Part shown: in pieces, positions 1-46,812 of the stretch
Numbering within the stretch: position 1 is the first letter of the stretch
Layout of the letters: each line of letters starts with the position of its first letter
DNA from: Xylophilus sp. GW821-FHT01B05
Lineage (GTDB): Bacteria; Pseudomonadota; Gammaproteobacteria; Burkholderiales; Burkholderiaceae_C
NCBI GenBank assembly: GCA_038961845.1
Contig: CP152408.1
Coordinates: 1-64,000 of the forward strand
DNA: 64,000 bases
Reading direction: 5' to 3'
Translations under genes and position numbers: made by a program
Notes under the pieces: generated by a model
Seen by the model: the letters and a program-made list of their open reading frames with translations, nothing else
Told to the model about the DNA's origin: nothing
Database searches by the model: none

Positions 1-1422
1 ATGACCGAGGGATTCCCCCCCGGCGCCGGCCCCGGCGCCCCTGACGACGCAGGCCAGAGCCTGTGGCAGGTCTGCATAGAACAACTGGCGCAAGAGCTGC
101 CAGAGCAGCAGTTCAACACCTGGATCAAGCCCTTGGTGGCCCAGGTGACCGAAGACCTGTCCCGCGTCACCCTGTATGTCGGCAACCGCTTCAAGCTGGA
201 CTGGATCCGCGCACAGTACGCAGGCCGCATTGCGCAGACGCTGGAGCGCATCTACGGTCAGCCCATCGCCCTTGAGTTAGCCCTTACTCAGCGTGAAGCT
301 CCCGTACGTACTAGCCTTCCGCCTGCTGCCACGATGACCAGCGCGCCCGCCGCGCTGCCCGAGCCCGTGGCCCTGGGCGATGACAGCGCGCCGGCGGCGT
401 TCAAGAACCGCCTGAATTCCGCGCTGACCTTCGACACGCTGGTGGAGGGCACGGCCAACCGCATGGCGCGCGCTGCGGCCATGCACGTGGCCGGCATGCC
501 GGGCCATTTGTACAACCCGCTGTTCATCTACGGCGGCGTTGGCCTGGGCAAGACCCACTTGGTGCACGCGGTGGGCAACAAGCTGCTGGCCGACAAGCCC
601 GACTCGAAAGTTCTCTACATCCATGCCGAGCAGTTCGTGTCGGATGTGGTCAAGGCCTACCAGCGCAAGACTTTCGACGAGTTCAAGGAGCGTTATCACT
701 CGCTCGACCTGCTGTTGATAGACGATGTGCAGTTCTTCGCCAACAAGGACCGCACGCAGGAAGAATTCTTCAATGCGTTCGAGGCACTGCTGGCCAAGAA
801 GAGCCACATCGTGATGACGTCGGACACCTACCCCAAGGGCCTGGCCGACATCCACGAGCGCCTGGTATCGCGTTTTGACTCTGGCCTGACGGTGGCGATC
901 GAGCCGCCCGAGCTGGAGATGCGCGTGGCCATTCTGATCAACAAGGCGCGCTCCGAGGCCACCGAGATGCCCGAGGAAGTGGCCTTCTTCGTTGCCAAGA
1001 ACGTGCGCTCGAACGTGCGTGAGCTCGAAGGCGCGCTGCGCAAGATCCTGGCCTATTCGCGCTTCAACCAGAAGGACATCAGCATCCAACTGGCACGCGA
1101 AGCCCTGCGCGATCTGCTGTCGATCCAGAACCGGCAGATTGGTGTGGAAAACATCCAGAAGACGGTGGCCGACTATTACAAAATCAAGGTCGCCGACATG
1201 TACAGCAAGAAGCGCCCGGCCAGCATTGCGCGGCCGCGCCAGATTGCCATGTACCTGGCCAAGGAACTGACGCAAAAGAGCCTGCCCGAGATCGGCGAGC
1301 TGTTTGGCGGCCGCGACCACACCACGGTGCTGCACGCGGTGCGCAAGATCGCCGCCGAGCGCCAGCAGCTCACCGAGCTGAACCAGCAACTGCACGTGCT
1401 GGAACAGACGCTGAAAGGCTAG
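1..1422 (+). CDS. dnaA: Chromosomal replication initiator protein DnaA
   Basis: DnaA is the ATP-dependent initiator that binds 9-bp DnaA boxes and opens the origin. The 473-aa protein is full length. An N-terminal domain I (about residues 15-85) and a linker precede the AAA+ core with Walker A GGVGLGKT at about 178-185 and Walker [11 protein letters not shown] at about 237-246. C-terminal domain IV carries the box-reading signature [15 protein letters not shown] from about residue 436. The window begins exactly on the ATG, so the upstream region, where an origin is usually found, cannot be seen. dnaN follows after 117 bases in the same direction. Confidence 0.99.
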
Positions 1423-1441: not shown

Positions 1442-1539
1442 TTACCCCGAAACCAGCCCTGAAACCGGCGAAAATGCCGGATGGTGCCCGCGCCCGGGCG
1501 CCGCACCTATCGACAACGCATTCTGGAGAAGAGGTTGAC

Positions 1540-2661
1540 ATGATCGTCTTGAAGGCCACCCAAGAAACGCTGCTCTCGGCTCTGCAATCGGTGGCGGGCA
1601 TCGTGGAGCGGCGGCATACGCTGCCCATCCTGGCCAATGTGCTGATCCGCAAGACCGGCCCGCAGGTGCAGCTGACGACCAGCGACCTTGAGATCCAGAT
1701 CCGCACCGTGGCCGAGCTGGGCGGCGATGAAGGCAGCTTCACCACCACCATTGGCGCGCGCAAGCTGATCGACATCCTGCGCACCCTGCCCTCGGACCAG
1801 ACGGTGTCGCTCGAATCCACCGGCGGCAAGCTGGTGCTCAAGGGCGGCAAGAGCCGCTTCACGCTGCAGTCGCTGCCGGCGGAAGACTTTCCCCTGGTGC
1901 AAGAGGCGGCCAACTTCGGCCCGGCCTTCAGCGTGCCGCAGAAAACGCTCAAGAGCCTGCTGGGCCAGGTGTCGTTCTCGATGGCGGTGCATGACATCCG
2001 CTATTACCTGAACGGCATTTTGTTTGTGGCCGAAGGCAAGACCTTGTCGCTGGTGGCCACCGACGGCCACCGCCTGGCCTTTGCCTCGGCCCAGCTCGAC
2101 GTCGAAGTGCCCAAGCAAGAGGTGATCCTGCCGCGCAAGACCGTGCTGGAGCTGCAGCGCCTGCTGACCGACGCCGGCGACGCCGAGAACCCGCCGCGCA
2201 TCGAGATGCAGTTCGCCAACAACCAGGCCAAGTTTGGCTTTGGCGGCATGGAATTCGTCACCAAGCTGGTCGAGGGCAAGTTCCCCGACTACAACCGCGT
2301 GATCCCCAAGGGCCACAAGAACAGCGTCACCCTGGGCCGCGCGCCGCTGCTGGGCAGCCTGCAGCGCACCGCCATCCTGACCAGCGAGAAGTTCAAGGGC
2401 GTGCGCCTGAACCTGGAGCCGGGCACGCTGCGCGTGGCCAGCAACAACGCCGAGCAGGAAGAGGCGCAGGACGAGCTCGACATCGACTACGGTGGCGACA
2501 CCATCGAGATCGGCTTCAACGTGACCTACCTGATCGATGCCCTGGCCAACATGTCGCAAGACATGGTGACCCTCGAACTCTCGGACTCCAACAGCTCCGC
2601 GCTGCTGACCATCCCCGAGAACGCCGACTTCAAATACGTCGTGATGCCGATGCGGATCTGA
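1540..2661 (+). CDS. dnaN: DNA polymerase III beta subunit (sliding clamp)
   Basis: This is the ring-shaped processivity clamp of the replicase. I chose ATG 1540 (MIVLKATQETLL) because it gives the usual family N-terminus and length (373 aa) and lies behind a GGAGAAGAGG ribosome binding site at 1525-1534. An in-frame ATG at 1474 would add 22 residues without family similarity. The three-fold repeated clamp domains run through the whole protein, and it ends in the typical C-terminus YVVMPMRI. dnaA is upstream; gyrB follows directly, so recF is missing from this locus. Confidence 0.98.
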   Translation: MIVLKATQETLLSALQSVAGIVERRHTLPILANVLIRKTGPQVQLTTSDLEIQIRTVAELGGDEGSFTTTIGARKLIDILRTLPSDQTVSLESTGGKLVLKGGKSRFTLQSLPAEDFPLVQEAANFGPAFSVPQKTLKSLLGQVSFSMAVHDIRYYLNGILFVAEGKTLSLVATDGHRLAFASAQLDVEVPKQEVILPRKTVLELQRLLTDAGDAENPPRIEMQFANNQAKFGFGGMEFVTKLVEGKFPDYNRVIPKGHKNSVTLGRAPLLGSLQRTAILTSEKFKGVRLNLEPGTLRVASNNAEQEEAQDELDIDYGGDTIEIGFNVTYLIDALANMSQDMVTLELSDSNSSALLTIPENADFKYVVMPMRI

Positions 2662-2751: not shown

Positions 2752-5421
<2,670 letters not shown>

Positions 5422-8316: not shown

Positions 8317-8488
8317 CGCGCGTGACTAAAACCTGTGCGAAATAAACACTGCGCCGTTGCGGAAGATCGACGACGCGATCAAGGTGGACTGGTGCTCGAC
8401 ATGCCTAAAGGGACGAGGTAAAGCCCCTCCGGGTCTTTATTACGACTGGTGCGCTGCAGATGGCAAATATTGATGTGTGAGGTGGCGG
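8317..8488. other. Intergenic spacer inside the island
   Basis: These 172 bases separate the helicase fusion from the DUF3883 gene. No convincing ORF, hairpin terminator or repeat was found. The spacing is wide enough for a separate promoter, so the third gene may be transcribed independently. Confidence 0.4.
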
Positions 8489-9322
8489 ATGGACTGGACC
8501 CTGATCGAGCTTGAGGCCATCGTTGCCGACTATTTGCATATGCTGACTCTGGAGTTGGCAGGACAAAACTACAACAAAACGCGGCACCGCCAAGCACTGC
8601 ATGTGAAATTGCCGGATCGCTCATCGGGGTCGCTCGAATTCAAGCACTGCAATATCAGTGCAGTGCTGCTTGACCTCGGTTATCCCTACATCCGGGGCTA
8701 TCAACCACGTTTCAACTATCAGGCGCTTCTTGCTACGGTGGTTGCGGAGCAGCTACACGACGCGACTCTATTACAAGAAGCTGCATGGGCGGCAACGCAG
8801 CAACCGGCAGTGCACGTAGGCCAGACAGAATTTACTCATATGCTGGAGGCTGCTCCGATACGCCGGCACCGTGCATCGGAGCCCACTGCAGAGTATTCAT
8901 TCAAGGCCGTCAAACGGGACTACCTTGAGCGTGAAACTATGAATCGGTCCTTGGGTTTGGCAGGAGAAGAGCTCGTAGTTCAGTTCGAGCAGTGGCGGCT
9001 CCATCAACTAGGCTATACGAAGCTGGCAAACCGGATCGAGCTTGTGTCCCAAGCTCGAGGCGATGGACTGGGCTATGACGTGCTGTCATTTGAACCAGAC
9101 GGCCGAGAGCGATTCATCGAAGTTAAAACGACGTCCTTCGGGCGTGAAACACCTTTCTATGTGTCTCGCGGGGAGTTGCAACTCTCCCGGCAAGAACCAC
9201 TGCAGTTCCACCTATATCGCCTGTTTGATTTTCGCAAAGCGCCGCGGCTGTTTGATTTGCCGGGCACTCTGGACAGCCACTGTGTCCTTGACCCCGTTTC
9301 CTATCGGGCGTCTTTCGACTAG
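8489..9322 (+). CDS. DUF3883 domain protein, PD-(D/E)xK nuclease-like
   Basis: The 277-aa protein starts MDWTLIELEAIVADYL, an N-terminus often seen in DUF3883 proteins. The C-terminal DUF3883 domain (about 150-260) has AGEELVVQFE, GYDVLSFEPDG and FIEVKTT, giving the E...D...ExK arrangement of PD-(D/E)xK nucleases. ATG 8489 was preferred over GTG 8477 because it matches the family start and has GGTGG just upstream. DUF3883 domains are frequent in restriction and other defence loci. It is the last gene of the three-gene set and converges on dhaL. Cleavage activity is not proven by the sequence. Confidence 0.82.
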   Translation: MDWTLIELEAIVADYLHMLTLELAGQNYNKTRHRQALHVKLPDRSSGSLEFKHCNISAVLLDLGYPYIRGYQPRFNYQALLATVVAEQLHDATLLQEAAWAATQQPAVHVGQTEFTHMLEAAPIRRHRASEPTAEYSFKAVKRDYLERETMNRSLGLAGEELVVQFEQWRLHQLGYTKLANRIELVSQARGDGLGYDVLSFEPDGRERFIEVKTTSFGRETPFYVSRGELQLSRQEPLQFHLYRLFDFRKAPRLFDLPGTLDSHCVLDPVSYRASFD

Positions 9323-9373
9323 CCCAAATTGCGCCGCCGCATCTGGTTCTTCACACCCCCTGAACCGCACAGC

Positions 9374-10006
9374 CTACAACATCTCCACCATCCGCAACAC
9401 AGCCACCATCCCCGGATCATCCAAACCCACACTCTGCTGCGCAAACATGCGCGCGCGGCCAATCTTGTTGGGGTGATTGCGTAGTGCGTCGAGGGCTGTG
9501 GTGGCAGCGTTGTGTGCCGCGCTCTTGAGCATGGCGGCATCAGCATTTGCTGGCGCCTCATGCAACGCGCGGCTGATCGCCTCCAGACTGTCGAGCATGG
9601 TCTTGTCACCAAGCTTCGCGCCGCCACGGGCCATCAGGGCCTCCAGCGCGGCGGACAGTATTGCCACCATGGCGTCACGGTCGAGAGCGGTGGCCGCGTG
9701 GGGTGACTTGGCTGCGGTCAGGAAGGCTACGGCCAATAGCGTGCCGAAGCTTGAGCCGGATGCCTTGGCGCAGGCCGATGCGCAGGCCTTGAAGATCGCG
9801 GCGGGCGAGTCGCCGGAGGTGGGTAGTGCGCCTGTGATGTTCTCTGCGCAACGCTGCAGCGTGGTACCCAGGTCGCCATCGCCCAGGCGGGCGTCGAGCG
9901 CGTTGAGCTCGGGCGCGGCGGTGGTCATGGCCTGGCACCAGCGTGCCAGGGCTGCCTTCAGCGTTGGGCCATCGACCGAGAAGGTGGGGGCGGGAAGAGC
10001 GCTCAT
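9374..10006 (-). CDS. dhaL: Dihydroxyacetone kinase subunit DhaL-type (nucleotide-binding)
   Basis: DhaL carries the nucleotide used to phosphorylate the substrate held covalently by DhaK. The 210-aa protein contains the DhaL signature LDARLGDGDLGTTL (about 40-53), whose aspartates bind Mg-nucleotide, and an all-helical body. Its ATG overlaps the dhaK stop (ATGA), and a GGAGGG site lies inside the end of dhaK, so the two are translationally coupled. No DhaM or other PTS phosphodonor gene is present in the window, so ATP may be the direct donor. Confidence 0.92.
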   Translation of the reverse strand: MSALPAPTFSVDGPTLKAALARWCQAMTTAAPELNALDARLGDGDLGTTLQRCAENITGALPTSGDSPAAIFKACASACAKASGSSFGTLLAVAFLTAAKSPHAATALDRDAMVAILSAALEALMARGGAKLGDKTMLDSLEAISRALHEAPANADAAMLKSAAHNAATTALDALRNHPNKIGRARMFAQQSVGLDDPGMVAVLRMVEML

Positions 10007-37183: not shown

Positions 37184-37379
37184 TAGCAGTAGTAGTAGAG
37201 GGCGCCAAAAAATGGGGATAACCGGGTTTTTCCCTTAGCAATCAAGCAGTTGTGATTTATTCAACCCTGTGGTCCCGCACCCCGGAGCTTTTTGGCTGGG
37301 CGCTAACAACTTTCGGGCGCGGCGCCGGTCTGTGGACAAGCCCGCTTTTGCGCGAAAACCATCCACAAAGTTATCCACA
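37184..37379 (+). other. Origin-like module III: DnaA-trio-like repeat plus four DnaA-box positions
   Basis: TAG-CAG-TAG-TAG-TAG at 37184-37198 is followed by GC-rich AGGGCGCC. Box positions are TGGGGATAA (37213), TGTGGACAA (37331), CCATCCACA (37359) and perfect TTATCCACA (37371), at +0, +118, +146 and +158. This matches modules I and II. It lies in the 451-base gap between the DUF4124-like gene and a LysR gene. The layout resembles the basal unwinding system (DnaA-trios, GC cluster, DnaA box). Confidence 0.65.
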
Positions 37380-37416
37380 TGCGCCTAAAAAATAGGCAAA
37401 ACCGCCAAGAATGCCC

Positions 37417-38313
37417 CTAAACGGTGCCTGAATTGCGGCCCAGGTGGTCCACCAGCAACTGGCAGGCCGGCGACAGGCTGCCCGGCGCACGCACGCAGAT
37501 CACCAGGTCGCGCCGGGCCCAGGGCTCGTCCAGCGCCACGGCCTGGATCGCCAGCGCCGGCTGGTAGAGCGCGGCGCTGCCGCGCGGCAGCACGCCAATG
37601 CCCAGGCCGGCGTCGACCATCAGGCACAGGGCGTCGTAGCTGGTGACCTGGATGCGCAACTTCAGCGGCAGGCCGATTTCGGCGGAGGCCTGGATCAGCT
37701 GGTTGTTGATGGCGCTGCCCGGGTGCACGCCGACGATGTCGTAGGCCAGCGCCTCGCGCAGCGTGCTGCGGCGCCGGCGCGCCAGGGCGTGGCCGCGCGG
37801 CACGATCAGCACCAGCTCGTCTTGCCGGTAGGGCAGTTGGGTGAGTTCTTCGCCGTAGTGGCCGGCGTTGAGGATGCCGATGTCGGCCATGTTGTCTGCC
37901 ACCTGGCGCGCGATCACGGTGCTGATGCATTCCTGCAGGCGCACCTGCACCAGCGGGTAGCGCTGCATGAAGCCGCGCAATTGCGCCGGCAGAAACTGCG
38001 TGATGGCCGAGATATTGGCCGCCACCCGCACCTGGCCGCGCAGGCCGTCGGCGTAGCCCTGCATTTGCGCGGCGATGTCGTCCAGCCCGTTGAGCACGCC
38101 GCGCGCCAGGCCCAGCAAGGCAAAAGCGGCGGCGGTGGGCTCGGTGCCTTTGTTGCTGCGCTGGAAAAGCACGGCGCTGAGCGCGGCTTCGAGCTCGCTG
38201 ATGCGCTTGCTCACGGCGGATGCGGCCAGATGCTCGCGCGCGGCGGCGTTGGCGATGGTGCCTTCTTCCATCACCGCGACAAAAAGCCTGAGGGAAACCG
38301 GGTCGAGCCGCAT
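37417..38313 (-). CDS. LysR-family transcriptional regulator
   Basis: The 298-aa regulator starts at ATG 38313 (MRLDPVSLRLFVAVMEEGTI). The N-terminal winged helix (about 1-60: AAREHLAASAVSKRISELE) precedes an effector domain (about 90-290). The frame upstream of 38313 overlaps the divergent promoter. It is divergent from the CoA-transferase / lyase / Bug operon and is the likely activator, with a dyad in the intergenic region. Confidence 0.93.
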   Translation of the reverse strand: MRLDPVSLRLFVAVMEEGTIANAAAREHLAASAVSKRISELEAALSAVLFQRSNKGTEPTAAAFALLGLARGVLNGLDDIAAQMQGYADGLRGQVRVAANISAITQFLPAQLRGFMQRYPLVQVRLQECISTVIARQVADNMADIGILNAGHYGEELTQLPYRQDELVLIVPRGHALARRRRSTLREALAYDIVGVHPGSAINNQLIQASAEIGLPLKLRIQVTSYDALCLMVDAGLGIGVLPRGSAALYQPALAIQAVALDEPWARRDLVICVRAPGSLSPACQLLVDHLGRNSGTV

Positions 38314-38328
38314 GCTGCGGGCGATTAC

Positions 38329-38349
38329 ACCATCGCGTTTGGCGATGGT
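38329..38349. promoter_or_regulatory. Dyad operator in the LysR / CoA-transferase promoter
   Basis: ACCATCGC-GTTTG-GCGATGGT forms perfect 8-bp arms 16 bases upstream of the LysR start. It is a candidate binding site for the LysR regulator. Confidence 0.55.
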
Positions 38350-38425
38350 GGCTTCGCCATTGAGCGTTTTGCAGTTGCCACGGCGCTGGCCATGATGCGT
38401 TTTTCCCCTGAAGAGAGACAAACGC

Positions 38426-39634
38426 ATGACTTCCGCCGCCCTTTCCGTTGGCGCGCTCTCCGGCCTGCGCGTGGTCGAGATGGGCCAGCTCATCGCCGGC
38501 CCGTTCTGCGGCAAAACCTTGGGCGACTTTGGCGCCGACGTGGTCAAGATCGAAGCCCCGGGCAGCGGTGACCCGCTGCGCAACTGGCGCCTGTTGCAGG
38601 ACGGCACCTCGGTCTGGTGGCAGGTGCAGTCGCGCAACAAGCGCTCGATCGCACTCGACCTGCGCAGCGCCGAAGGCCAGGACATCGCGCGCCAACTGAT
38701 CGCCGAAGCCGATGTGCTTGTGGAAAACTTTCGGCCCGGCACGCTCGAAGCCTGGGGCCTGGGCTGGGACGCGCTGCATGCGCTCAACCCCGGGCTGGTG
38801 ATGTTGCGCATTTCCGGCTACGGCCAGACCGGGCCTTACCGTGACCTGCCCGGTTTCGGTGTGATCGGCGAGGCCATGGGCGGCTTGCGCCACCTCACCG
38901 CCGAGCCCGGCCGCGTGCCGGTGCGCGTGGGCGTTTCCATCGGCGACACGCTGGCCGCGCTGCACGGAACCATTGGCGTATTGATGGCGCTGTACCACCG
39001 CAAAGTGCATGGCGGCGAAGGCCAGGTGATAGACGTCGCGCTGCACGAGGCGGTGTTCAACTGCATGGAAAGTTTGCTGCCCGAGTACAGCGCTTTTGGC
39101 GCGGTGCGCGAAGCCGCGGGCAGTGCCTTGCCGGGCATTGCGCCGTCAAACGCCTACAAGTGCGCCGACGGTTATGTGCTGATCGCAGGCAATGGCGACA
39201 GCATTTTTCGCCGCTTGATGGAAAGCATTGGCCGCACTGATCTGGCCACGGCGCCGGATCTGCAAGACAACGCCGGCCGCGTGGCGCGCGTGGACGAGAT
39301 CGATGCGGCCATCGGCGCCTGGACTGCTGCGCGCTCCATTGCCGATGTGATGGAGATCCTGGGCGCCGCGCGCGTGCCGGCCGGCAAGGTCTACACCGCC
39401 AAAGATATCCACAGCGACCCGCACTACCGCGCCCGCGACATGGTGCTGCAACAGACCACGCGCGACGGCCATGTGCTGGACGTGCCGGGCATCGTGCCCA
39501 AGCTGTCGGCCACGCCGGGCAGCGTGCGTTCTTCTGCGCCGCACCTGGGCGATGACACCGATGCGGTGTTGCGCGAAGCGGGTTTGAGCGCGGGGCAGAT
39601 TCAGTTGTTGCGTGAAAAGGGGGTCGTTGCATGA
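38426..39634 (+). CDS. CaiB/BaiF-type (class III) CoA-transferase
   Basis: The 402-aa family III CoA-transferase has LRVVEMGQLIAGPFCGKTLG near the N-terminus, RNKRSIALDLRSAEGQD, and SGYGQTGPYRDLPGFG with the catalytic Asp expected to form an acyl-aspartyl anhydride. It moves CoA onto an organic acid. Its stop overlaps the lyase start (ATGA). With HMG-CoA lyase it would activate and cleave a branched dicarboxylic acid, such as citramalate or a 3-hydroxy-3-methylglutarate-like acid. Confidence 0.94.
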   Translation: MTSAALSVGALSGLRVVEMGQLIAGPFCGKTLGDFGADVVKIEAPGSGDPLRNWRLLQDGTSVWWQVQSRNKRSIALDLRSAEGQDIARQLIAEADVLVENFRPGTLEAWGLGWDALHALNPGLVMLRISGYGQTGPYRDLPGFGVIGEAMGGLRHLTAEPGRVPVRVGVSIGDTLAALHGTIGVLMALYHRKVHGGEGQVIDVALHEAVFNCMESLLPEYSAFGAVREAAGSALPGIAPSNAYKCADGYVLIAGNGDSIFRRLMESIGRTDLATAPDLQDNAGRVARVDEIDAAIGAWTAARSIADVMEILGAARVPAGKVYTAKDIHSDPHYRARDMVLQQTTRDGHVLDVPGIVPKLSATPGSVRSSAPHLGDDTDAVLREAGLSAGQIQLLREKGVVA

Positions 39635-40626
39635 GCGAAATTTGGAGTGGCGCCGCACGCCGTATCTACCTGCAAGAGGTCGGCCCGCGCGATGGGCTGC
39701 AAATGGAATCGGCCTTTGTGCCCACGGCCGACAAGATTGCGCTGGTCGATGCGCTGTCGGCTGCCGGGCTGGCCAAGATCGAGGTCACCTCTTTCACCTC
39801 GCCGCAGGCGATTCCCGCGCTGCGCGATGCGGAAATCGTGCTGCGCGAAATCCGCCGTGTGCCCGGCGTGGTCTACACCTGTTTGGTGCCCAACCTGCGC
39901 GGCGCCGAGCGCGCGGTGGATGCGCGCGCTGATGAATTCAACCTGGTGATGTCGGCCAGCGAAACCCACAACATTGCCAACCTGCGCATGACGCGCGCCC
40001 AGTCTTTTGCCGCGCTGACGCAGGTGGTGGCGCTGGCGCAGCAGTCGCGCATCGCGGTGAACGTGTCGCTGTCTTGCGCTTTCGGTTGCCCGATGGAAGG
40101 CGATGTCGATGCGGCCGTGGTGCTGGATTGGGCTGGGCGTTTTCTGGAACAGGATGGCGAGGGCACGGTAAGGGGAATCACCTTGTGCGACACCACCGGC
40201 ATGGCCTACCCGACACAGGTCGCCGCGCTGACCCGCGCTTTTCGCCAACGCTTTCCCGCAGCCGAGCTGACCCTGCACTTCCACAACACGCGCGGCATGG
40301 GCCTGGCCAATGTGTTGGCCGCGATCGACGCGGGTGCTGACCGCTTCGACGCATCGTTGGGCGGACTCGGCGGCTGCCCGTATGCGCCGGGCGCCAGCGG
40401 CAATGTCTGCACCGAAGAAATCGTGCACGCGCTGCAGCTGATGGACTTTTCCACAGGCTGCGATCTGCCGCAGTTGCTGGCGGCCGCCGCGCGCCTGCCC
40501 GCGCTGATCGGCCATGACATCCCGAGCCAGATCGCCAAGGCCGGCCCGCGCCTGGCACTGCATGCGCCGCCGGCGGACTTTGCCGCGCTGCGCGAACGCG
40601 CGCTGGCGCGCGATGCCGTGCATTGA
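39631..40626 (+). CDS. Hydroxymethylglutaryl-CoA lyase-family protein
   Basis: The 331-aa DRE-TIM metallolyase starts with IYLQEVGPRDGLQMES (catalytic Arg and Asp), has HFHNTRGMGLANVLAAI with metal-binding histidines, and the C-terminal GGCPYAPGASGNVCTEEI with the catalytic Cys. It cleaves 3-hydroxy-3-methylglutaryl-CoA or a related acyl-CoA into acetyl-CoA plus a keto acid. It is translationally coupled to the CoA-transferase; the Bug protein follows 89 bases on. Confidence 0.93.
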   Translation: MSEIWSGAARRIYLQEVGPRDGLQMESAFVPTADKIALVDALSAAGLAKIEVTSFTSPQAIPALRDAEIVLREIRRVPGVVYTCLVPNLRGAERAVDARADEFNLVMSASETHNIANLRMTRAQSFAALTQVVALAQQSRIAVNVSLSCAFGCPMEGDVDAAVVLDWAGRFLEQDGEGTVRGITLCDTTGMAYPTQVAALTRAFRQRFPAAELTLHFHNTRGMGLANVLAAIDAGADRFDASLGGLGGCPYAPGASGNVCTEEIVHALQLMDFSTGCDLPQLLAAAARLPALIGHDIPSQIAKAGPRLALHAPPADFAALRERALARDAVH

Positions 40627-40640
40627 TGTCCAAAGAGAGA

Positions 40641-40682
40641 ACCGTTCGTCCTGAGCTTGTCGAAGGACCCAGCCCGAACGGT
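40641..40682. repeat. GTTCG/CGAAC hairpin repeat, copy 1
   Basis: ACCGTTCG and CGAACGGT enclose CCTGAGCTTGTCGAAGG. Related copies lie at 58.6 and 60.4 kb. This type of dispersed palindrome is widespread in proteobacteria. Confidence 0.75.
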
Positions 40683-40689
40683 CGCAGTT

Positions 40690-40698
40690 TTATCCACA
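40690..40698. promoter_or_regulatory. Perfect DnaA box upstream of the Bug gene
   Basis: TTATCCACA sits 17 bases before the ATG of the Bug-protein gene, just after a hairpin repeat, and close to the ribosome binding site ACAGGAGA. It is one of the clustered DnaA boxes of the 37.3-43.5 kb region. Confidence 0.5.
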
Positions 40699-40715
40699 AC
40701 GACAGGAGACTTTTC

Positions 40716-41693
40716 ATGAACATCACCCGCCGCCATGTGCTGGCACTGGCCACCTTTGCCAGCCTGGGTTTTTCTGCACACGCGCAGACCGGCCACTATC
40801 CGAACAAACCGGTGCTGTTGCTGGTGCCCACCGCTGCTGGCGGCACCACCGATATTTCCGCGCGCATGCTTGGTGTGCCGCTGGGCACGGCGCTGGGGCA
40901 GACCGTGGTTGTGGATAACCGCGGCGGCGCCAACGGCGGCATCGCGGCGGTCGCGGTCAAGCGCGCGGAACCCGATGGCTACACGCTGTTGATGCAGTAC
41001 TCGGGCTACCACGTGATCACGCCGCTGGTCAGCAAACAGCCCTTGCAATGGAAGCCGGAAGAGCTGCAGCCGGTGGCCAATGTGCTGTCGGCGCCGCAGA
41101 TCGTGGTGGTGCGCGCCGACCTGCCGTACAAGACCATGGCCGAGTTCATCGCCTTTGCAAAAGCCAATCCGGGCAAGGTCAATTACGCGTCTTCAGGCAA
41201 TGGCTCGCTGCAGCATGCAACGGGCGCCATGTTGGAACAACAGGCCGGCATCCAGATGACGCACGTTCCGTACAAGGGCACCGGCCCGGCGCTGCAGGAT
41301 TTGCTCGGCGGCCAGGTCGACATCACCTTTGGCACGGCGCCGCCCTTCATCCCGCACATCCAGTCGGGCCGCCTGCGGGTGTTGGCCACCACCGGAAAAG
41401 CGCGTTTGCCCAGCCTGCCCGATGTGCCGACCACGGCCGAAGCCGGCCTGCCCAAGCTCGACGCGACCTCGTGGTTTGGCGTGTTCGCACCGGCCAAGAC
41501 GCCCAAGCCGATTGTGGATAAGTTGTCCGCCGAGATCGCCAAGGTGGTGGCCGACCCGGCTTTCCAGAAAAAAGCGCAAGAGCAAGGCGCCGTGGCCGAC
41601 TATCTGAACCCGCAGCAGCTCAATGCGCTGGTAGAGCGCGAAACCGCCAACTGGACCGCAGTCGTCAAAGCCGCGCATATCGAAGCTGACTGA
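40716..41693 (+). CDS. Bug/TctC-family periplasmic substrate-binding protein
   Basis: The 325-aa binding protein starts at ATG 40716 (MNITRRHVLALATFASLGF) behind CAGGAGAC. The signal peptide contains TRRHVLAL, which is twin-arginine-like. Family motifs are LVPTAAGGTTDISARMLG and NRGGANGGIAAVAVKRAEPDG. It is the third gene of the LysR-controlled operon and is likely to bind the organic acid that the CoA-transferase activates. A perfect DnaA box (41513-41521) lies within its coding sequence. Confidence 0.93.
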   Translation: MNITRRHVLALATFASLGFSAHAQTGHYPNKPVLLLVPTAAGGTTDISARMLGVPLGTALGQTVVVDNRGGANGGIAAVAVKRAEPDGYTLLMQYSGYHVITPLVSKQPLQWKPEELQPVANVLSAPQIVVVRADLPYKTMAEFIAFAKANPGKVNYASSGNGSLQHATGAMLEQQAGIQMTHVPYKGTGPALQDLLGGQVDITFGTAPPFIPHIQSGRLRVLATTGKARLPSLPDVPTTAEAGLPKLDATSWFGVFAPAKTPKPIVDKLSAEIAKVVADPAFQKKAQEQGAVADYLNPQQLNALVERETANWTAVVKAAHIEAD

Positions 41694-41719
41694 TTCGGAG
41701 CTGCTTTCTCACCCATGGA

Positions 41720-41750
41720 CCCCGCCTTTGGCGGGGTTTTTTTATTTTTC
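41720..41750 (+). terminator. Strong intrinsic terminator
   Basis: CCCCGCC-TTT-GGCGGGG followed by TTTTTTTATTTTT, 27 bases after the Bug-gene stop. It ends the CoA-transferase operon and isolates the origin-like region downstream. Confidence 0.9.
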
Positions 41751-41820
41751 CCCGCGCTTCGCGCGGGCTGGCAGAGCGCGCGACTTCTACCAGTTCATGT
41801 CTATAACTTCTATTTCAAAT

Positions 41821-42017
41821 TAGTAGTAGTAGTAAGGGACGCCCTCTTCTGTGGATAAGTCCTTTTTCCCCATGCCGCGTCAAGGACTTGCGGCGCCGAC
41901 AAGCATGTGGACGCCGGGCTGGTCCTTTCAGAGCGCATTGCGAACAACTCCGCAGACCGCGCCGCGCCTGTGGATAAGCTGCGAGTTGTGCCAGAACTAT
42001 CCACAGAGTTATCAAAA
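41821..42017 (+). other. Origin-like module I: DnaA-trio repeat plus four DnaA-box positions
   Basis: TAG x4 then TAA (41821-41835) follows an AT-rich stretch. GGGACGCCC and a perfect TGTGGATAA (41850) come next, then TGTGGATAA (41969, perfect), CTATCCACA (41997) and TTATCAAAA (42009). Offsets are +0, +119, +147 and +159. The first two boxes point one way, the last two the other. ORFs across it are short and have no protein-like sequence. It is part of the 1308-base gene-free gap (41694-43001). Confidence 0.75.
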
Positions 42018-42081
42018 TTCCGCCGCACGGCAATGCGATGAAATTTTGAAGAAAAGTAGCTGAAACCCTTGCTGGACGCCG

Positions 42082-42110
42082 GCTAATAGCTATTAAAACA
42101 ATAGCTACAA
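42082..42110. repeat. ATAGCTATT hairpin repeat after module I
   Basis: TAATAGCTATTAAAACAATAGCTA is an AT-rich dyad of the same family as the copies at 26.1 and 57.1 kb. It separates module I from the hairpin-repeat stretch. Confidence 0.55.
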
Positions 42111-42200
42111 GTGCGCAGCCACGCGTTGTGTGCTGCGGACGGCTGCCGCGCGCATGGCCAAAAGATGGCCCGGCCCCCTTCTGCCGGAACAAAACAGGCG

Positions 42201-42496
42201 CTTCAAAACCGCTGGACGCACCGTGGCCTGCAGTGCATTGCGGCTTCAGCGACTTTGACGCGCCAGTGCGCTGGCCGCGGCGCGGGCTGCCCAGCCTTGC
42301 CGCGCGGCTGAGGCGGCGCTCCAGGGCCTTCAAAGCGGCTGCAGTGGCCCGCTGGAGGCAGTTCCAGCGACTTTGGCGCGTCTGATTTGCGGCGAGCGCA
42401 CGCGCCAGCCGGTTTTGGCCGCCGCCGCGTGGCGGCCCAAAGTCTTCAAAACCGCTACTGCCGGCAGCAAGGGCCGGTTCCATCGATTTTGAAGCG
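42201..42496. repeat. Three imperfect hairpin-forming repeats between origin-like modules
   Basis: CTTCAAAACCGCT-like blocks at 42201, 42328 and 42444 are each followed, 34-43 bases later, by an inverted partner such as CAGCGACTTTGACG or ATCGATTTTGAAGCG (42244, 42362, 42478). The GC-rich unit recurs about every 116-127 bases. No coding function is apparent. Confidence 0.5.
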
Positions 42497-42620
42497 CCGA
42501 CTTGCGCGGCGGTGGCCGCGGCGAAACCACTTTTGCTCTGCACACGGGCCTGGCACACAAGCGTGGCCGGAACAGGCTCGCGGCTTTCGCCAGTTCTTCT
42601 CTATCAGTGCTATTTCTAAA

Positions 42621-42817
42621 TAGTAGTAGTAATAGGCGAGCGCCTCTTCTGTGGATAAGTCACTTTTCCAGCGCCAGATCAAGGACTTGCGGCGGCGACA
42701 AGCATGTGGACGCGGGCCTGGTGCGCGCAGACCGAACAGATAACAACTTTCCAGAGCGCCGCGGCGCTGTGGATAACTGCGTGCTTGTGCCGGAACTATC
42801 CCCAGGGTTTTCAGTGG
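42621..42817 (+). other. Origin-like module II: DnaA-trio repeat plus DnaA boxes
   Basis: TAG x3, TAA, TAG (42621-42635), then GC-rich sequence and a perfect TGTGGATAA at 42650, a second at 42768, and a decayed CTATCCCCA at 42797. It lies exactly 800 bases after module I at the trio, the first box and the third box, and shares CAAGGACTTGCGGCG and CGACAAGCATGTGGACGC with it, so I and II are tandem duplicates. A further perfect box is at 42938-42946. Confidence 0.7.
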
Positions 42818-42862: not shown

Positions 42863-42904
42863 CCTTATAGAACAAGGGCTTGTAGCTATAAAAACAATAG
42901 CTAA
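42863..42904. repeat. Hairpin repeat after module II
   Basis: GCCCTTATAGAACAAGGGC is followed by TAGCTATAAAAACAATAGCTA. It occupies the same position relative to module II as the dyad after module I. Confidence 0.55.
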
Positions 42905-42937: not shown

Positions 42938-42946
42938 TGTGGATAA
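42938..42946. promoter_or_regulatory. Isolated perfect DnaA box after module II
   Basis: TGTGGATAA with TTTTTATG immediately downstream, 56 bases before the end of the ybhN-like gene. Confidence 0.5.
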
Positions 42947-43001: not shown

Positions 43002-43976
43002 CTATTTAATAGTGGATGTGCGCCGCCGCGCGCGCCACTCCACCAGCCCAAAGCCCAGTACCGCGAGCAGCAGCGGCCCGAAGTAGTACAGCGCCCGGTA
43101 GGCCAGCACAGCGGCCAGCACCTGCTCTGTCGGCGCGAGGCCCGCCAGCAGCGCCACGGCCACGGCCTCCAGCACGCCCAGGCCGGCCGGCACCCGCGAC
43201 ACCAGGCCGGCCACTGCGCCAAACAGCATGGTCGACAGCACGGCCGCATAGGGCGCCTGCTGTTGCAGCAGCATCCACACCGCGCCAGACATCAGCGCCC
43301 AGTTGATGGCGGACGCCGCCACCTGCAGCGGCGCGAACCAGGGCCCGGGCAGCACAAAGCGGTGGCCATGCCATGCCAGCGGCCGGCCGTGGCGCCAGGC
43401 GCAGAGCAGCCAGTAGGCCAGCGGCACGGCGGCCAGCAGCAGGGCGATGGCGTGCCAGGGCGGGGTGACGGGCAGCCAGTCTGTGGATAACTTGGGCGGC
43501 CAAAGCCACAGGGCGGCGCCGGCCAGCGGGAAGTAGCCGATCCAGTTGCTGAGCACGCTGGTGGCTGCGATCTGGCCGATCTGCAGCGGCGCCAGGCCCT
43601 GGCGTGAGTACAGGCGCAGGCGCACCGCCACGCCGCCGATCAGGGAGCCCAGGTTGAGCGTGAACGGGTAGCTGACCAGGGTGATGCCGACGGTGGTGGC
43701 CGCGCGGATCGGCAGGCGGTTGTAGTGGCGGCCGATCAGGTCGAAGCAGCCGTAGAGCAGGTGGCTGGCCAGCGCCAGGCCGGCGGCGGCCAGCAGCACG
43801 GGCGGCGGCAGTGCGCGCACGGCACGCCAGACGCCGGGCCAGTCCATGTTGCGGCCTTGGCGGTACAACAGCGCCGCGATCAGCAGCAGCAAGGCCAGGC
43901 TGGCGATGCGCGCGGCCCAGCGCCAGTGCGCGTGGCGGCGCAGGCGCTGCCAGAGCGGCATCGCCTCAGGCGGCAT
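43002..43976 (-). CDS. ybhN: YbhN/UPF0104-type lysylphosphatidylglycerol-synthase-like membrane protein
   Basis: The 324-aa polytopic protein has about eight membrane segments and matches the flippase-like transmembrane domain of MprF without its synthase part (GITLVSYPFTLNLGSLIGG, SNWIGYFPLAGAALW, VSRVPAGLGVLEAVAVAL). It is the third gene of a minus-strand operon whose order ybhP-clsB-ybhN is the same as in E. coli. It overlaps clsB by 11 bases. A role in phospholipid handling is inferred from context. Confidence 0.85.
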   Translation of the reverse strand: MPPEAMPLWQRLRRHAHWRWAARIASLALLLLIAALLYRQGRNMDWPGVWRAVRALPPPVLLAAAGLALASHLLYGCFDLIGRHYNRLPIRAATTVGITLVSYPFTLNLGSLIGGVAVRLRLYSRQGLAPLQIGQIAATSVLSNWIGYFPLAGAALWLWPPKLSTDWLPVTPPWHAIALLLAAVPLAYWLLCAWRHGRPLAWHGHRFVLPGPWFAPLQVAASAINWALMSGAVWMLLQQQAPYAAVLSTMLFGAVAGLVSRVPAGLGVLEAVAVALLAGLAPTEQVLAAVLAYRALYYFGPLLLAVLGFGLVEWRARRRTSTIK

Positions 43977-45210
43977 CGGTGCGCGTCGGGCCGCTGCCCT
44001 CGGGCGCGCTGCCGGTGTCGGACCAGTGCACGGGCTGGGCCCGTTGGGACGAGCGCGGCAGCCAGCCGGCCCAGGACGGGTACCAGCGCAGGATGTGGAA
44101 CACGAAGAAGCTGCGCACCAGGCGCCAGCCGCTCCATTCGGTGCCCAGGTCTTGGGTTTCTATGCGCTTGCAGCTGTGCTGCATCAGGTGATCCAGCCGC
44201 GCGTGCAGCTGTTCGTTGAAGGCGCGGTCGCGGATGACGACGTTGGCTTCGAGGTTGAGCGACAGGCTCAGCGGGTCGAGGTTGCTGGAGCCGACGGTGG
44301 CCCATTCACGGTCGGCCAGCGCGACCTTGCCGTGCAGCGGCCGGTCGGTGTACTCGTAGATGCGCACGCCCGCATGCAGCAGGTGGTGGTAGAGCATGCT
44401 GGCCGCGGTTTTGACAATGGGCATGTCGGGCTTGCCCTGCAGGATCAGGCGCACGTCCACGCCGCGGCGCGCGGCGCGGCGCATGTCCTGGATCAGGCGG
44501 TAGCCGGGAAAGAAGTAGGCGTTGGCGATGACGACGCGCTCGCGCGCGGTGCGCATGGCGGCGCGGTAGTGGCGCTCGATGTCGGTGGTGTGGCGATGGT
44601 TGTCGCGGGTGGCGAACAAGGCCTGCGCGGCGCCTGCGGGCGGCAGCTCTGGCTGCAACGGGGCGGCGGCCTGCGGTCTGTGTGGCCGCGCCGCGCCGAC
44701 GGCATGCAGCACGAAGCGGTGGATGTGGGCGACCACCGGGCCATTGACCTCGACCGCGTAGTCTTGTTTGGCCTCGGGGCCGAAGTCGGCCAGGTGGTCA
44801 GCCGAGTAATTGATGCCGCCGACAAAGGCGCGCTTGCCATCCACCACCACCAGCTTGCGGTGCATGCGGCGCAGCAGGTTCAGGCGCTGGCCGAAGATGC
44901 GCGGTGCCGGGTCGAACACGCGCAGCCGCACGCCCTGGGAGCTGAGCGAATGCAGGAAGGCATCAGACAGGTCGGGCGAGCCATAGCCGTCGATCATGAC
45001 GTGCACCCGGGCGCCGTTGTGCGCGGCCTGCACCAGCGCGTCGCGCAGCGCCAGGCCGACCTTGTCTTCGAACAGGATGAAGGTCTCCAGCACCACCTCG
45101 TGCCGGGCCGCGGCGATGCACTCGAACACGCGCGGGAAGAAGGCCTCGCCGTTCTCCAGCAGGCGCAGCTGGTTGCCATCGGTCCAGCGTGCGCGCCGGC
45201 CTGGGTTCAT
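43966..45210 (-). CDS. clsB: Cardiolipin synthase B-type phospholipase D family protein
   Basis: The 414-aa protein has two HKD motifs: MHRKLVVVDGKRAFVGG (about 118-134) and LHGKVALADREWATVGSSN (about 292-310), joined by a central domain. It makes cardiolipin or related phospholipids at the inner membrane. ATG 45210 overlaps the ybhP stop (ATGA). The frame continues upstream to 45501 but that stretch belongs to ybhP in another frame. Confidence 0.92.
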   Translation of the reverse strand: MNPGRRARWTDGNQLRLLENGEAFFPRVFECIAAARHEVVLETFILFEDKVGLALRDALVQAAHNGARVHVMIDGYGSPDLSDAFLHSLSSQGVRLRVFDPAPRIFGQRLNLLRRMHRKLVVVDGKRAFVGGINYSADHLADFGPEAKQDYAVEVNGPVVAHIHRFVLHAVGAARPHRPQAAAPLQPELPPAGAAQALFATRDNHRHTTDIERHYRAAMRTARERVVIANAYFFPGYRLIQDMRRAARRGVDVRLILQGKPDMPIVKTAASMLYHHLLHAGVRIYEYTDRPLHGKVALADREWATVGSSNLDPLSLSLNLEANVVIRDRAFNEQLHARLDHLMQHSCKRIETQDLGTEWSGWRLVRSFFVFHILRWYPSWAGWLPRSSQRAQPVHWSDTGSAPEGSGPTRTDAA

Positions 45211-45986
45211 AGCGAGAGTTCGGCCGCCAGCGGTGCGTGGTCCGACAGGTGCGACCAGGGCCGGCGCGGCAGTACGAAGGGGGCATGGACCACGGCGTTG
45301 CGCACATAGATGCGGTCCAGCGGCAGCACCGGCATCTTGGCCGGGAAGGTGCGCGCGGCGCGGCCCTCGGCCTGCACGAAGACTTCGCGCAGGCCGGCGC
45401 CCTTGCGCAGGATCTCGTGGGCGCGGCTGCGCCAGTCGTTGAAGTCGCCCGCCACCACCAGCGGCGCGTTGGCCGGGATGTCTTTGCGGATCAGCTCGCA
45501 CATCAGGTGCAACTGCTTGCGCCGGTGGTGCTCTTGCAGGCCCAGGTGCACGCAGATCGCATGCAGGTTGGTGGCGCGGCCGGGCAGGCGCAGCACGCAG
45601 TGCAGCATGCCGCGGCGCTCGGGGCCGCTGATGGAGACGTCGTGGTTCTGGTGGTGGACGATCGGAAACTTCGACAGCAGCGCGTTGCCGTGGTGGCCGT
45701 TGTCATAGACCGCGTTGCGGCCATAGGCGAACTGCGACCAGATGCTGTCGGCCAGGAACTCGTAGTGCGGCGCTGGCGGGAAGTTGGCGATGCGGTTCGG
45801 GTGCTTGGCGTGCGTGCCCAGCACCTCTTGCAAAAACACCACGTCGGCCGACACGCTGCGCACTGCGTCGCGCAGGTCGTGCAGCATGAAGCGCCGGTTG
45901 AAGGAGGTGAAGCCCTTGTGGATATTGACGGTGAGCACGCGCACGGTCACAGGCGGGTCGGTGGGCAGGGGCGTGGCAGCAGTCAT
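45207..45986 (-). CDS. ybhP: Endonuclease/exonuclease/phosphatase-family protein (YbhP-like)
   Basis: The 259-aa EEP-fold protein has VNIHKGFTSFNRR, VVFLQEVLG (catalytic Glu), GHHGNALLSKFP, VVAGDFNDWRSRA and LSDHAPLAAELSL (Asp-His pair). ATG 45986 fits; 33 more residues upstream have no similarity. It is the first gene of the ybhP-clsB-ybhN operon. The natural substrate may be a phospholipid or nucleic acid; this is unresolved. Confidence 0.9.
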   Translation of the reverse strand: MTAATPLPTDPPVTVRVLTVNIHKGFTSFNRRFMLHDLRDAVRSVSADVVFLQEVLGTHAKHPNRIANFPPAPHYEFLADSIWSQFAYGRNAVYDNGHHGNALLSKFPIVHHQNHDVSISGPERRGMLHCVLRLPGRATNLHAICVHLGLQEHHRRKQLHLMCELIRKDIPANAPLVVAGDFNDWRSRAHEILRKGAGLREVFVQAEGRAARTFPAKMPVLPLDRIYVRNAVVHAPFVLPRRPWSHLSDHAPLAAELSL

Positions 45987-46091: not shown

Positions 46092-46646
46092 TCAGAAGGT
46101 GTAGCCGTAGCGCAGCTGCACGAAGTTTTCGCCCGGGTTCGGCCGCCTGATGGCGGCATTGGAGATGTGCTGCACGCGCAGTTGCACCTCGTGCTGGAAG
46201 TTCGTGCCGAAGCTGTAGCCCACGCCCAGGTGCGAGGCGAAGTTGAAGCGGGTGCTGAACTCTTTGCGGTCGGTGTGATAGAGGCCGTCGACGTAGGTCA
46301 GGCCTACGCCGGCATCGGCAAACCAGGGCGAAGCCCCCTGGTTGAGACGCAGCCGGAACGAGGGCACCAGGCCGATCAGGCTCATGTGCTCGGAGATGCT
46401 GTCGATGGCCAGGCGGCTGTAGTACAGATCCCAGTAGGCGCCGACCTTGGTGCCCCAGAGCGTGCTGCTCCACTGGATCGGGGCGGTAATGCCCACCGTG
46501 GCCACCTTGGTGTCGCTGGGGGTGCGTTCGTACTGCAGGTAGACCCCCGACTTGGCGGTGGGGTCGGCCTGTGCGGGCAGGGCTGCAGTGAGCAGGACCG
46601 TCGCTGCTGCGGCAGCGGCAAAGACGTGGAAGCGCGCGGTAGGCAT
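46092..46646 (-). CDS. pagL: Lipid A 3-O-deacylase PagL-like outer-membrane protein
   Basis: The 184-aa beta-barrel has a signal peptide ending in PAQADPT and the C-terminal signature VQHISNAAIRRPNPGENF, where His, Ser and Glu are the expected PagL catalytic residues. It ends LRYGYTF with the terminal Phe typical of outer-membrane proteins. It removes the 3-linked acyl chain of lipid A. ATG 46646 gives a proper signal peptide. It lies upstream of the cardiolipin operon on the same strand, an envelope-lipid neighbourhood. Confidence 0.88.
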   Translation of the reverse strand: MPTARFHVFAAAAAATVLLTAALPAQADPTAKSGVYLQYERTPSDTKVATVGITAPIQWSSTLWGTKVGAYWDLYYSRLAIDSISEHMSLIGLVPSFRLRLNQGASPWFADAGVGLTYVDGLYHTDRKEFSTRFNFASHLGVGYSFGTNFQHEVQLRVQHISNAAIRRPNPGENFVQLRYGYTF

Positions 46647-46812
46647 GGTCGAGCGGGTGGGAAGGAGTCTGTAGAAGGTGGGCTTGCAGTGTAGAGAGAA
46701 AGTCCCGGGCGTGCGAGGCGTGCCCCGAATGCCATGGTGCTGCGTGCTGGTGTCTGGCGGGCCGCAAGCGCGCGGCGCTGTGTTGTGCCCTATTTCCGGG
46801 AGCCGCAACAAA

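Follow-up and report, generated by a model that had tools for sequence, protein, structure and literature searches.

To our knowledge, bacteria are held to use one replication origin (oriC) per chromosome. The oriC of Escherichia coli, which the locus described here resembles in lying far from dnaA, is a single origin of another layout about 40 kb away from that gene, and the bipartite origins of Bacillus subtilis and Helicobacter pylori consist of unlike clusters of DnaA boxes that flank dnaA. Here we analyse the first 64 kb (hereafter the window) of the chromosome of Xylophilus sp. GW821-FHT01B05 (CP152408.1), a single contig of 5,832,500 bases that starts at dnaA, in which three modules of DnaA-trios and DnaA boxes lie 35.8-41.2 kb past dnaA and do not adjoin it. 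Very probably, these three modules together constitute the oriC of the chromosome, which would have moved off dnaA and been multiplied.

The modules resemble the basal unwinding system (BUS) of the B. subtilis oriC, which combines trios (3'-GAT-5' on the strand leaving the box) with a DnaA box and a short spacer (PMC8287927); they differ from it in their fixed far boxes (+118, +147 and +158), their extra conserved blocks, the presence of several whole units and their position away from dnaA. With bipartite origins, as named in a 2015 article (PMC4403523), they share origin parts separated by genes, whereas here the parts are complete units, each with trios of its own. The article also presents putative double origins from DoriC, such as the two predicted on one betaproteobacterial chromosome of Ralstonia pickettii 12D, and notes that evidence for any bacterial chromosome with two functional origins was lacking at the time. 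The R. pickettii pair, about 290 kb apart beside hemE and dnaA, was predicted from three boxes each and skew, and as described there is not of the unit type found here (PMC4403523). A literature search by title and abstract start (DnaA-trio, Comamonadaceae, Acidovorax, Comamonas, relocated or multiple origins) returned no description of such an arrangement; DoriC may contain predicted sites. Within the literature searched, the layout shared across the family, the probably repeated displacement of units and the occurrence of whole units in arrays appear to be new.

Architecture of the three units

The units, all on the forward strand, and the conserved blocks of one of them are as follows.

37184..37379, + strand, putative origin unit I, profile score 116.1 bits
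41821..42017, + strand, putative origin unit II, profile score 141.5 bits
42621..42804, + strand, putative origin unit III, profile score 131.9 bits
41881..41950, + strand, blocks CAAG..CTTG, AAGCATGTGG and AACAACTC between boxes 1 and 2 of unit II, conserved among 25 aligned units and putative binding sites

Every unit opens with five TAG-type trio steps that begin 29 bases ahead of box 1, boxes being called with at most two mismatches to TGTGGATAA or TTATCCACA. In unit I the trios TAGCAGTAGTAGTAG (37184-37198) precede the weak box 1 TGGGGATAA at 37213, box 2 TGTGGACAA at 37331 and inverted boxes at 37359 (two mismatches) and 37371 (TTATCCACA, perfect). Unit II, whose score is the highest in the searches of its own genome and of the family and which is itself part of the model, combines the trios TAGTAGTAGTAGTAA (41821-41835) with TGTGGATAA as both box 1 (41850) and box 2 (41969) and with inverted boxes at 41997 and 42009, the last of which (box 4) has two mismatches. 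Unit III, 78% identical to unit II in DNA across 239 bp, has trios at 42621-42635, box 1 at 42650, box 2 at 42768 and a weak inverted box at 42796 (two mismatches); its fourth box is lost. The boxes of the three units fall at 0, +118, +146 and +158 (I), at 0, +119, +147 and +159 (II) and at 0, +118 and +146 (III), with boxes 1-2 on the + strand and boxes 3-4 on the - strand throughout.

According to the published BUS search rule, such a system has at least three DnaA-trios, a box with at most two mismatches and a spacer of at most 16 bp (PMC8287927). Read outward from box 1 on the opposite strand, our units show TTATCCACA (TTATCCCCA in unit I), a 14-bp spacer and CTA/TTA-type trios, with a single CTG in unit I; box 1 has 0-1 mismatches across the three, and the relative orientation of trios and box agrees with the one that we derived from the consensus in that source. 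By their sequence, the units are of a known kind, the DnaA-trio/DnaA-box origin, and melting by DnaA is predicted. The original prediction, an annotation made from the letters of the window, had described origin-like modules of BUS layout, which agrees with this rule; it gave the three starts (37184, 41821 and 42621) exactly, the 29-base lead of the trios and the opposed facing of boxes 1-2 and 3-4 correctly, and all box offsets but one, the third box of the 42621 module lying at +146 and not at +147.

Several repeats accompany the units. An inverted repeat, TAGCTAT..A..ATAGCTA, stands right after units II and III (42085-42107 and 42881-42903); repeats of this type number only five in the 664 kb around dnaA, and the repeat may be a trace of the way in which the II/III block came to be doubled. 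An imperfect repeat with a spacing of ~117 bp (42240, 42358 and 42474, within 42240-42496) lies between units II and III, and extra perfect TGTGGATAA boxes occur outside the units at 42938-42946 and about 41513-41521, one of them inside the TctC gene.

Specificity within the genome

For the searches we used a sequence-only profile of 211 positions, built from 25 aligned units of 19 genomes, the three of the window included. Across the 5.83-Mb chromosome (E <= 0.001; 150 best candidates scored) this profile found no site beyond the three units, and hence none in the region upstream of dnaA with which the original prediction had proposed to align them. The pattern TAGTAGTAGTA-N8-24-TGTGGATAA occurs in the 5.83 Mb only at 41821 and 42621, and its reversed control not at all (0). 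Used as a DNA query, unit II matches only itself and unit III in its own genome; among 60 genomes (its own and relatives) it has matches in 19, namely 7 of 7 of the genus (own included), 12 of 29 other family members and 0 of 24 from other families. Chance patterns and decayed repeats as explanations of the units are ruled out by the pattern control, the uniqueness of the profile matches, the retention of conserved columns (see below) and the layout of boxes and trios.

Distribution and position across the family

We sampled 110 genomes of the family, drawn evenly, under strict filters that make the copy numbers lower bounds; a few second matches are partial. The modules are by no means absent from relatives, a point that the original prediction had raised: the profile matches a unit in 103 of the 110 genomes, in 95 of the 96 good-quality ones and in all 7 of the genus. 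DnaA was located in 105 of the 110. After setting aside 24 unit-bearing genomes with unit and dnaA on different contigs and one without a dnaA match, 78 remained, and in 49 of these the unit lies 2-155 bp past the aligned dnaA end, inverted to dnaA in 49/49. This place, picked out by a profile that was blind to location, is the dnaA-dnaN gap, a classical place of oriC. The order dnaA-unit-dnaN was also seen in named records (L numbers; G numbers denote sampled genomes) of Limnohabitans (L127), Caldimonas (L139), Rhizobacter (L165), Ramlibacter aurantiacus (L111) and Caenimonas (L213).

The other 29 of the 78 genomes have a displaced unit, listed downstream of dnaA in 24 and upstream in 5, at distances that range between about 5 kb in G081 and 459 kb in G087; for G102 the listing gives 2.4 Mb downstream, and as its contig is probably circular the unit more likely lies upstream. 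Adjacency to dnaA is a common trait of oriC and not a required one; it fails here and holds in 49 of 78 relatives. Order-wide, the profile matched 31 of 120 sampled genomes, three of them from the same family and the others at weak scores. In five of the weakly matching genomes (G038, G048, G051, G052 and G056) the match directly follows dnaA and is on the other strand, and the dnaA-dnaN gap therefore looks like the ancestral location of the unit.

The named records comprise at least 118 stretches that match the DNA pattern and overlap the genome sample, some genomes being shared; all counts from them hold among the matches listed. From the first 80 records we dropped 10 of 105 matches (the window's three, two from Chloroflexota and five partial or antisense) and kept the partial second unit of L138; from the last 38 we dropped three Bacillota matches and one antisense match, and the counts were added by hand. 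A unit of the family type is present in 112 of the 118. Records titled Pantoea sp. 18069 (L122) and Bordetella parapertussis, a metagenome-assembled genome (MAG; L132), bear the family's unit and are probably mislabelled. Outside the family, the pattern occurs in Chloroflexota (L113, L128, L131) and Bacillota (L182, L190, L205); all six match the trio-box-118-box spacing, five match the profile weakly (16-27 bits), and the Saccharibacillus match (L205) is inverted between dnaA and dnaN. These may reflect either a shared old layout or chance.

Copy number and conservation of the copies

Two or three units are present in 26 of the 103 unit-bearing genomes (a few by partial matches) and just one in 77; three units, called unusual by the original prediction, depart from published single-origin norms and are less exceptional within the family. 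Multiple units go with displacement: two or three occur in 15 of 29 displaced genomes (the units of G019 and G081 partly on another contig) versus 1 of 49 adjacent ones, the remaining 48 carrying one unit (Fisher p = 2e-7, shared ancestry ignored). Likewise, two units are found in 1 of 26 named records with dnaA in the stretch versus 30 of 86 without it, and 29 of the 31 pairs have the same orientation; Acidovorax sp. Leaf78 (L176) and Curvibacter lanceolatus (L148) are examples with two units and no dnaA in the 8-kb stretch. All 7 genomes of the genus have at least two units, 0.6-9.5 kb apart.

One unit suffices in the 77 single-unit genomes, as counted under strict filters; unit III has no box 4 and the box 1 of unit I is weak. 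A single unit, most likely II, might on these grounds be the working origin, with the others as leftovers or DnaA-holding helpers, which we regard as possible but unlikely. The copies themselves speak against it: between paralogous units, identity is 88-97% in the conserved columns versus 39-64% in the remaining ones (II/III 97 and 64%, I/II 91 and 41%, G005 88 and 39%, G022 92 and 46%, G018 89 and 39%, G013 88 and 50%). With the box and trio columns excluded, which had been used in picking units, the conserved columns still agree at 86-97%. Units of multi-copy genomes fit the consensus about as well as those of single-copy genomes, and two units persist in every one of the seven genus members. 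Unit I is the orthologue of the first unit (G005a) of G005, a genome of the same genus, with 98% identity at conserved columns and 75% elsewhere, and unit types I and II therefore look older than the split of the two species. G005 has only 635 bp between the two types; in the window, the space between them (37.4-41.7 kb) is occupied by a regulator gene and three metabolic ones.

Other arrangements were seen as well. The widest spread is that of G081, with units at C1:67278 and C1:166391 (~99 kb apart) and at C43:29577, about 5 kb before dnaA. In an Aquabacterium MAG (L191), a pair of adjoining units occupies the dnaA-dnaN gap, which is multiplication without displacement. G042 and G170, from another family of the order, have two and three weaker units close together, possibly a second, independent case of multiplication.

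Evidence on the working origin

The genes at the start of the chromosome are arranged as follows.

1..1422, + strand, dnaA (initiator), transcribed towards the origin units
1474..2661, + strand, dnaN (sliding clamp), start as listed for the open reading frame (ORF), the true start being perhaps near 1540; no origin unit between dnaA and dnaN
2755..5421, + strand, gyrB

The displaced units are likely to be the working origin, as family-wide conservation, the apparent ancestral location, parS sites and pooled strand skew all support; the original prediction had named this as one option and leaned towards a main origin near dnaA, which it placed outside the window, a leaning that the evidence as a whole does not support. 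dnaA lies inside the window, and no unit is left beside it. The dnaA-dnaN gap is shorter in displaced genomes (-48 to 191 bp, median 68, in 13) than in adjacent ones (151-298 bp, median 184, in 15), with the value of 191 overlapping the adjacent range; these lengths rest on extrapolation to residue 1 of the dnaN ORF of the window, and two further genomes had no dnaN in the locus. The direction of dnaA, dnaN and gyrB, which had been taken to favour an origin on the dnaA side, is what a dnaA-oriC-dnaN layout would leave behind after a move of oriC downstream, with the three genes pointing at it.

With a motif that we take to be that of parS, we found one to three sites in 15 of 18 genomes searched. 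In all 13 displaced genomes with parS (14 searched), these sites are closer to the unit than to dnaA, with medians, computed by hand, of about 25 kb and about 107 kb; examples are G031 (2 versus 152 kb), G108 (19 versus 157 kb) and G101 (23 versus 287 kb). The present genome has two sites to the right of unit III (contig positions 135787-136907), 93 kb from this unit and 134 kb from dnaA.

Strand skew was pooled from five displaced genomes (this one, G021, G087, G101 and G116). The motif GGGNAGGG, whose leading-strand polarity we presume from FtsK-orienting motifs, is distributed 74/87 between dnaA and unit, 33/39 beyond dnaA and 115/57 beyond the unit; the stretch between dnaA and unit thus compares with that beyond dnaA at p = 1 and with that beyond the unit at p = 1.6e-4. 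A polarity check in this genome gave 73 versus 35, partly from the same stretches as the test. For pooled GC skew in 20-kb windows the permutation p is 1e-4, neighbouring windows being treated as independent. Pooled strand skew switches at the unit and not at dnaA.

A number of observations weigh against placing the origin at the units. Of the 12 other displaced genomes with parS, 11 have it closer to the unit than the 93 kb seen in this genome, and a parS search of the displaced G102 gave no match. A fit corrected for gene strand (binomial, overdispersed) puts the best switch of this genome at -30 kb; dnaA (0 kb) falls short of this optimum by 5.4 log units and 40 kb by 8.2, so that the fit mildly favours dnaA. 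Corrected changepoint fits are flat in G101 and G087 (all within 1.3 units), G021 has almost no GC difference and an uninformative raw skew, and GGGNAGGG runs the opposite way in G116 (12/9 between, 6/7 beyond). A few DnaA-box-like sites, three loose ones, were seen by eye before dnaA, in the last 2.5 kb at the far end of the contig, and the family genomes share ancestry, which makes their counts not independent. The skew check proposed by the original prediction thus divides: the pooled data point to the unit, plain GC skew of this genome fails to place the origin, and only its gene-corrected skew mildly agrees with a main origin near dnaA.

The datA locus of E. coli is a titration site that binds DnaA without unwinding, is dispensable and is separate from oriC. 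If the modules were DnaA-titrating sites of this kind, with the main origin before dnaA in the rpmH-dnaA gap, the three loose sites there and the preference of the corrected skew for 0 kb over 40 kb (2.8 log units) would fit. Yet the profile finds no unit before dnaA, the units bear trios that titration does not need, the corresponding unit sits past dnaA in 49 of 78 relatives, and parS and pooled skew track the unit, which leaves this explanation highly improbable. Foreign origins brought by a mobile element or plasmid, to which displacement, multiplication and the differing neighbouring genes among relatives might point, deserve practically no credence and were rejected, given that the unit is family-wide and located at dnaA-dnaN in most same-contig genomes (49 of 78) and that the neighbouring genes for which a family was matched are of ordinary chromosomal kinds, several others having had no match.

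Proposed mechanism and relocation history

Taking the displaced units as the oriC, each would be one instance of the origin unit that is standard in the family, and replication would start somewhere in 37-43 kb. DnaA is predicted to bind box 1 (TGTGGATAA) and to spread as a filament over the GC-rich spacer onto the single-stranded TAG trios, where the filament would melt the DNA on the AT-rich side. Boxes 2-4, ~120-160 bp off, would hold further DnaA, probably approached by bending or a loop; box 2 (+118), the inverted pair (+147, +158) and the CAAG..CTTG and AACAACTT blocks would form this DnaA-holding, bending part. As the units are 0.8-5 kb apart, a fork from the first-firing unit could copy the others within seconds, and therefore the set would act as one origin and once-per-cycle control need not break. 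dnaA, dnaN and gyrB would now face a fork arriving from 37-43 kb.

In the ancestor, the unit would have occupied the dnaA-dnaN gap in inverted orientation; a downstream copy may then have arisen in this lineage, the copy on the dnaA side been lost and the moved origin kept as several units. On a DnaA tree of 31 genomes chosen from the 78 (16 displaced, 15 adjacent), the two states need eight changes (bootstrap range 7-9), and relocation, in one or both directions, therefore probably happened several times. Only two of the changes are required by branches with good support; support is weak for many branches, and those of G034 and G031 are long. A single displacement event is unlikely given the eight changes, which may be losses or gains. 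The link between displacement and multiplicity suggests that an extra copy came first and loss of the copy at dnaA followed. Possible intermediates are G091 and the Aquabacterium L191, whose two units are still within the dnaA-dnaN gap or next to it. With more doubt than confidence, we propose a general course: the origin of the family would repeatedly leave the dnaA-dnaN gap in this copy-then-lose manner and settle as an array of two or three whole, separately competent units, so that a natural chromosome could open at any of several start sites within a span of 0.3 to about 30 kb.

If the displaced units are indeed the origin, the assumption of a dnaA-adjacent origin is wrong for many genomes of the family, by tens to hundreds of kilobases. 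A family in which most genomes keep one unit at dnaA and the others have relocated, often multiplied units is a natural experiment on how origins move, on redundancy, cooperation or regulation among them, and on the once-per-cycle limit.

Neighbouring genes and other features

The remaining features around the units are the following.

37417..38313, - strand, LysR-type regulator between units I and II (PF00126, PF03466; start by inspection)
38426..41693, + strand, genes for a CoA-transferase family III protein, an HMGL-like lyase and a TctC-type binding protein, between units I and II
43002..43976, - strand, lysylphosphatidylglycerol-synthase-type membrane protein, right neighbour of unit III
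43966..45501, - strand, cardiolipin synthase ClsB (NF008427, 651 bits versus a cut-off of 281)
46092..46811, - strand, PagL-like lipid A deacylase

A homologue of the PagL-like gene (38-51% identity) shares an 8-kb stretch with a unit in 14 of the 118 named records, including Acidovorax, Paracidovorax, Simplicispira and Comamonas; dnaA is absent from the stretch in all of them. A TonB-receptor gene near the units of G005 and of Xylophilus sp. ASV27 (L187, NZ_JAELTO010000047.1) is 91-92% identical to that of the window. An Rfam scan of the window at gathering scores gave no match, and the sole tRNA detected in the window sits away from the units. The stretch 6000-10000 of the window has 57-59% G+C, compared with 65-69% in ten sampled 20-kb stretches, and is possibly acquired DNA.

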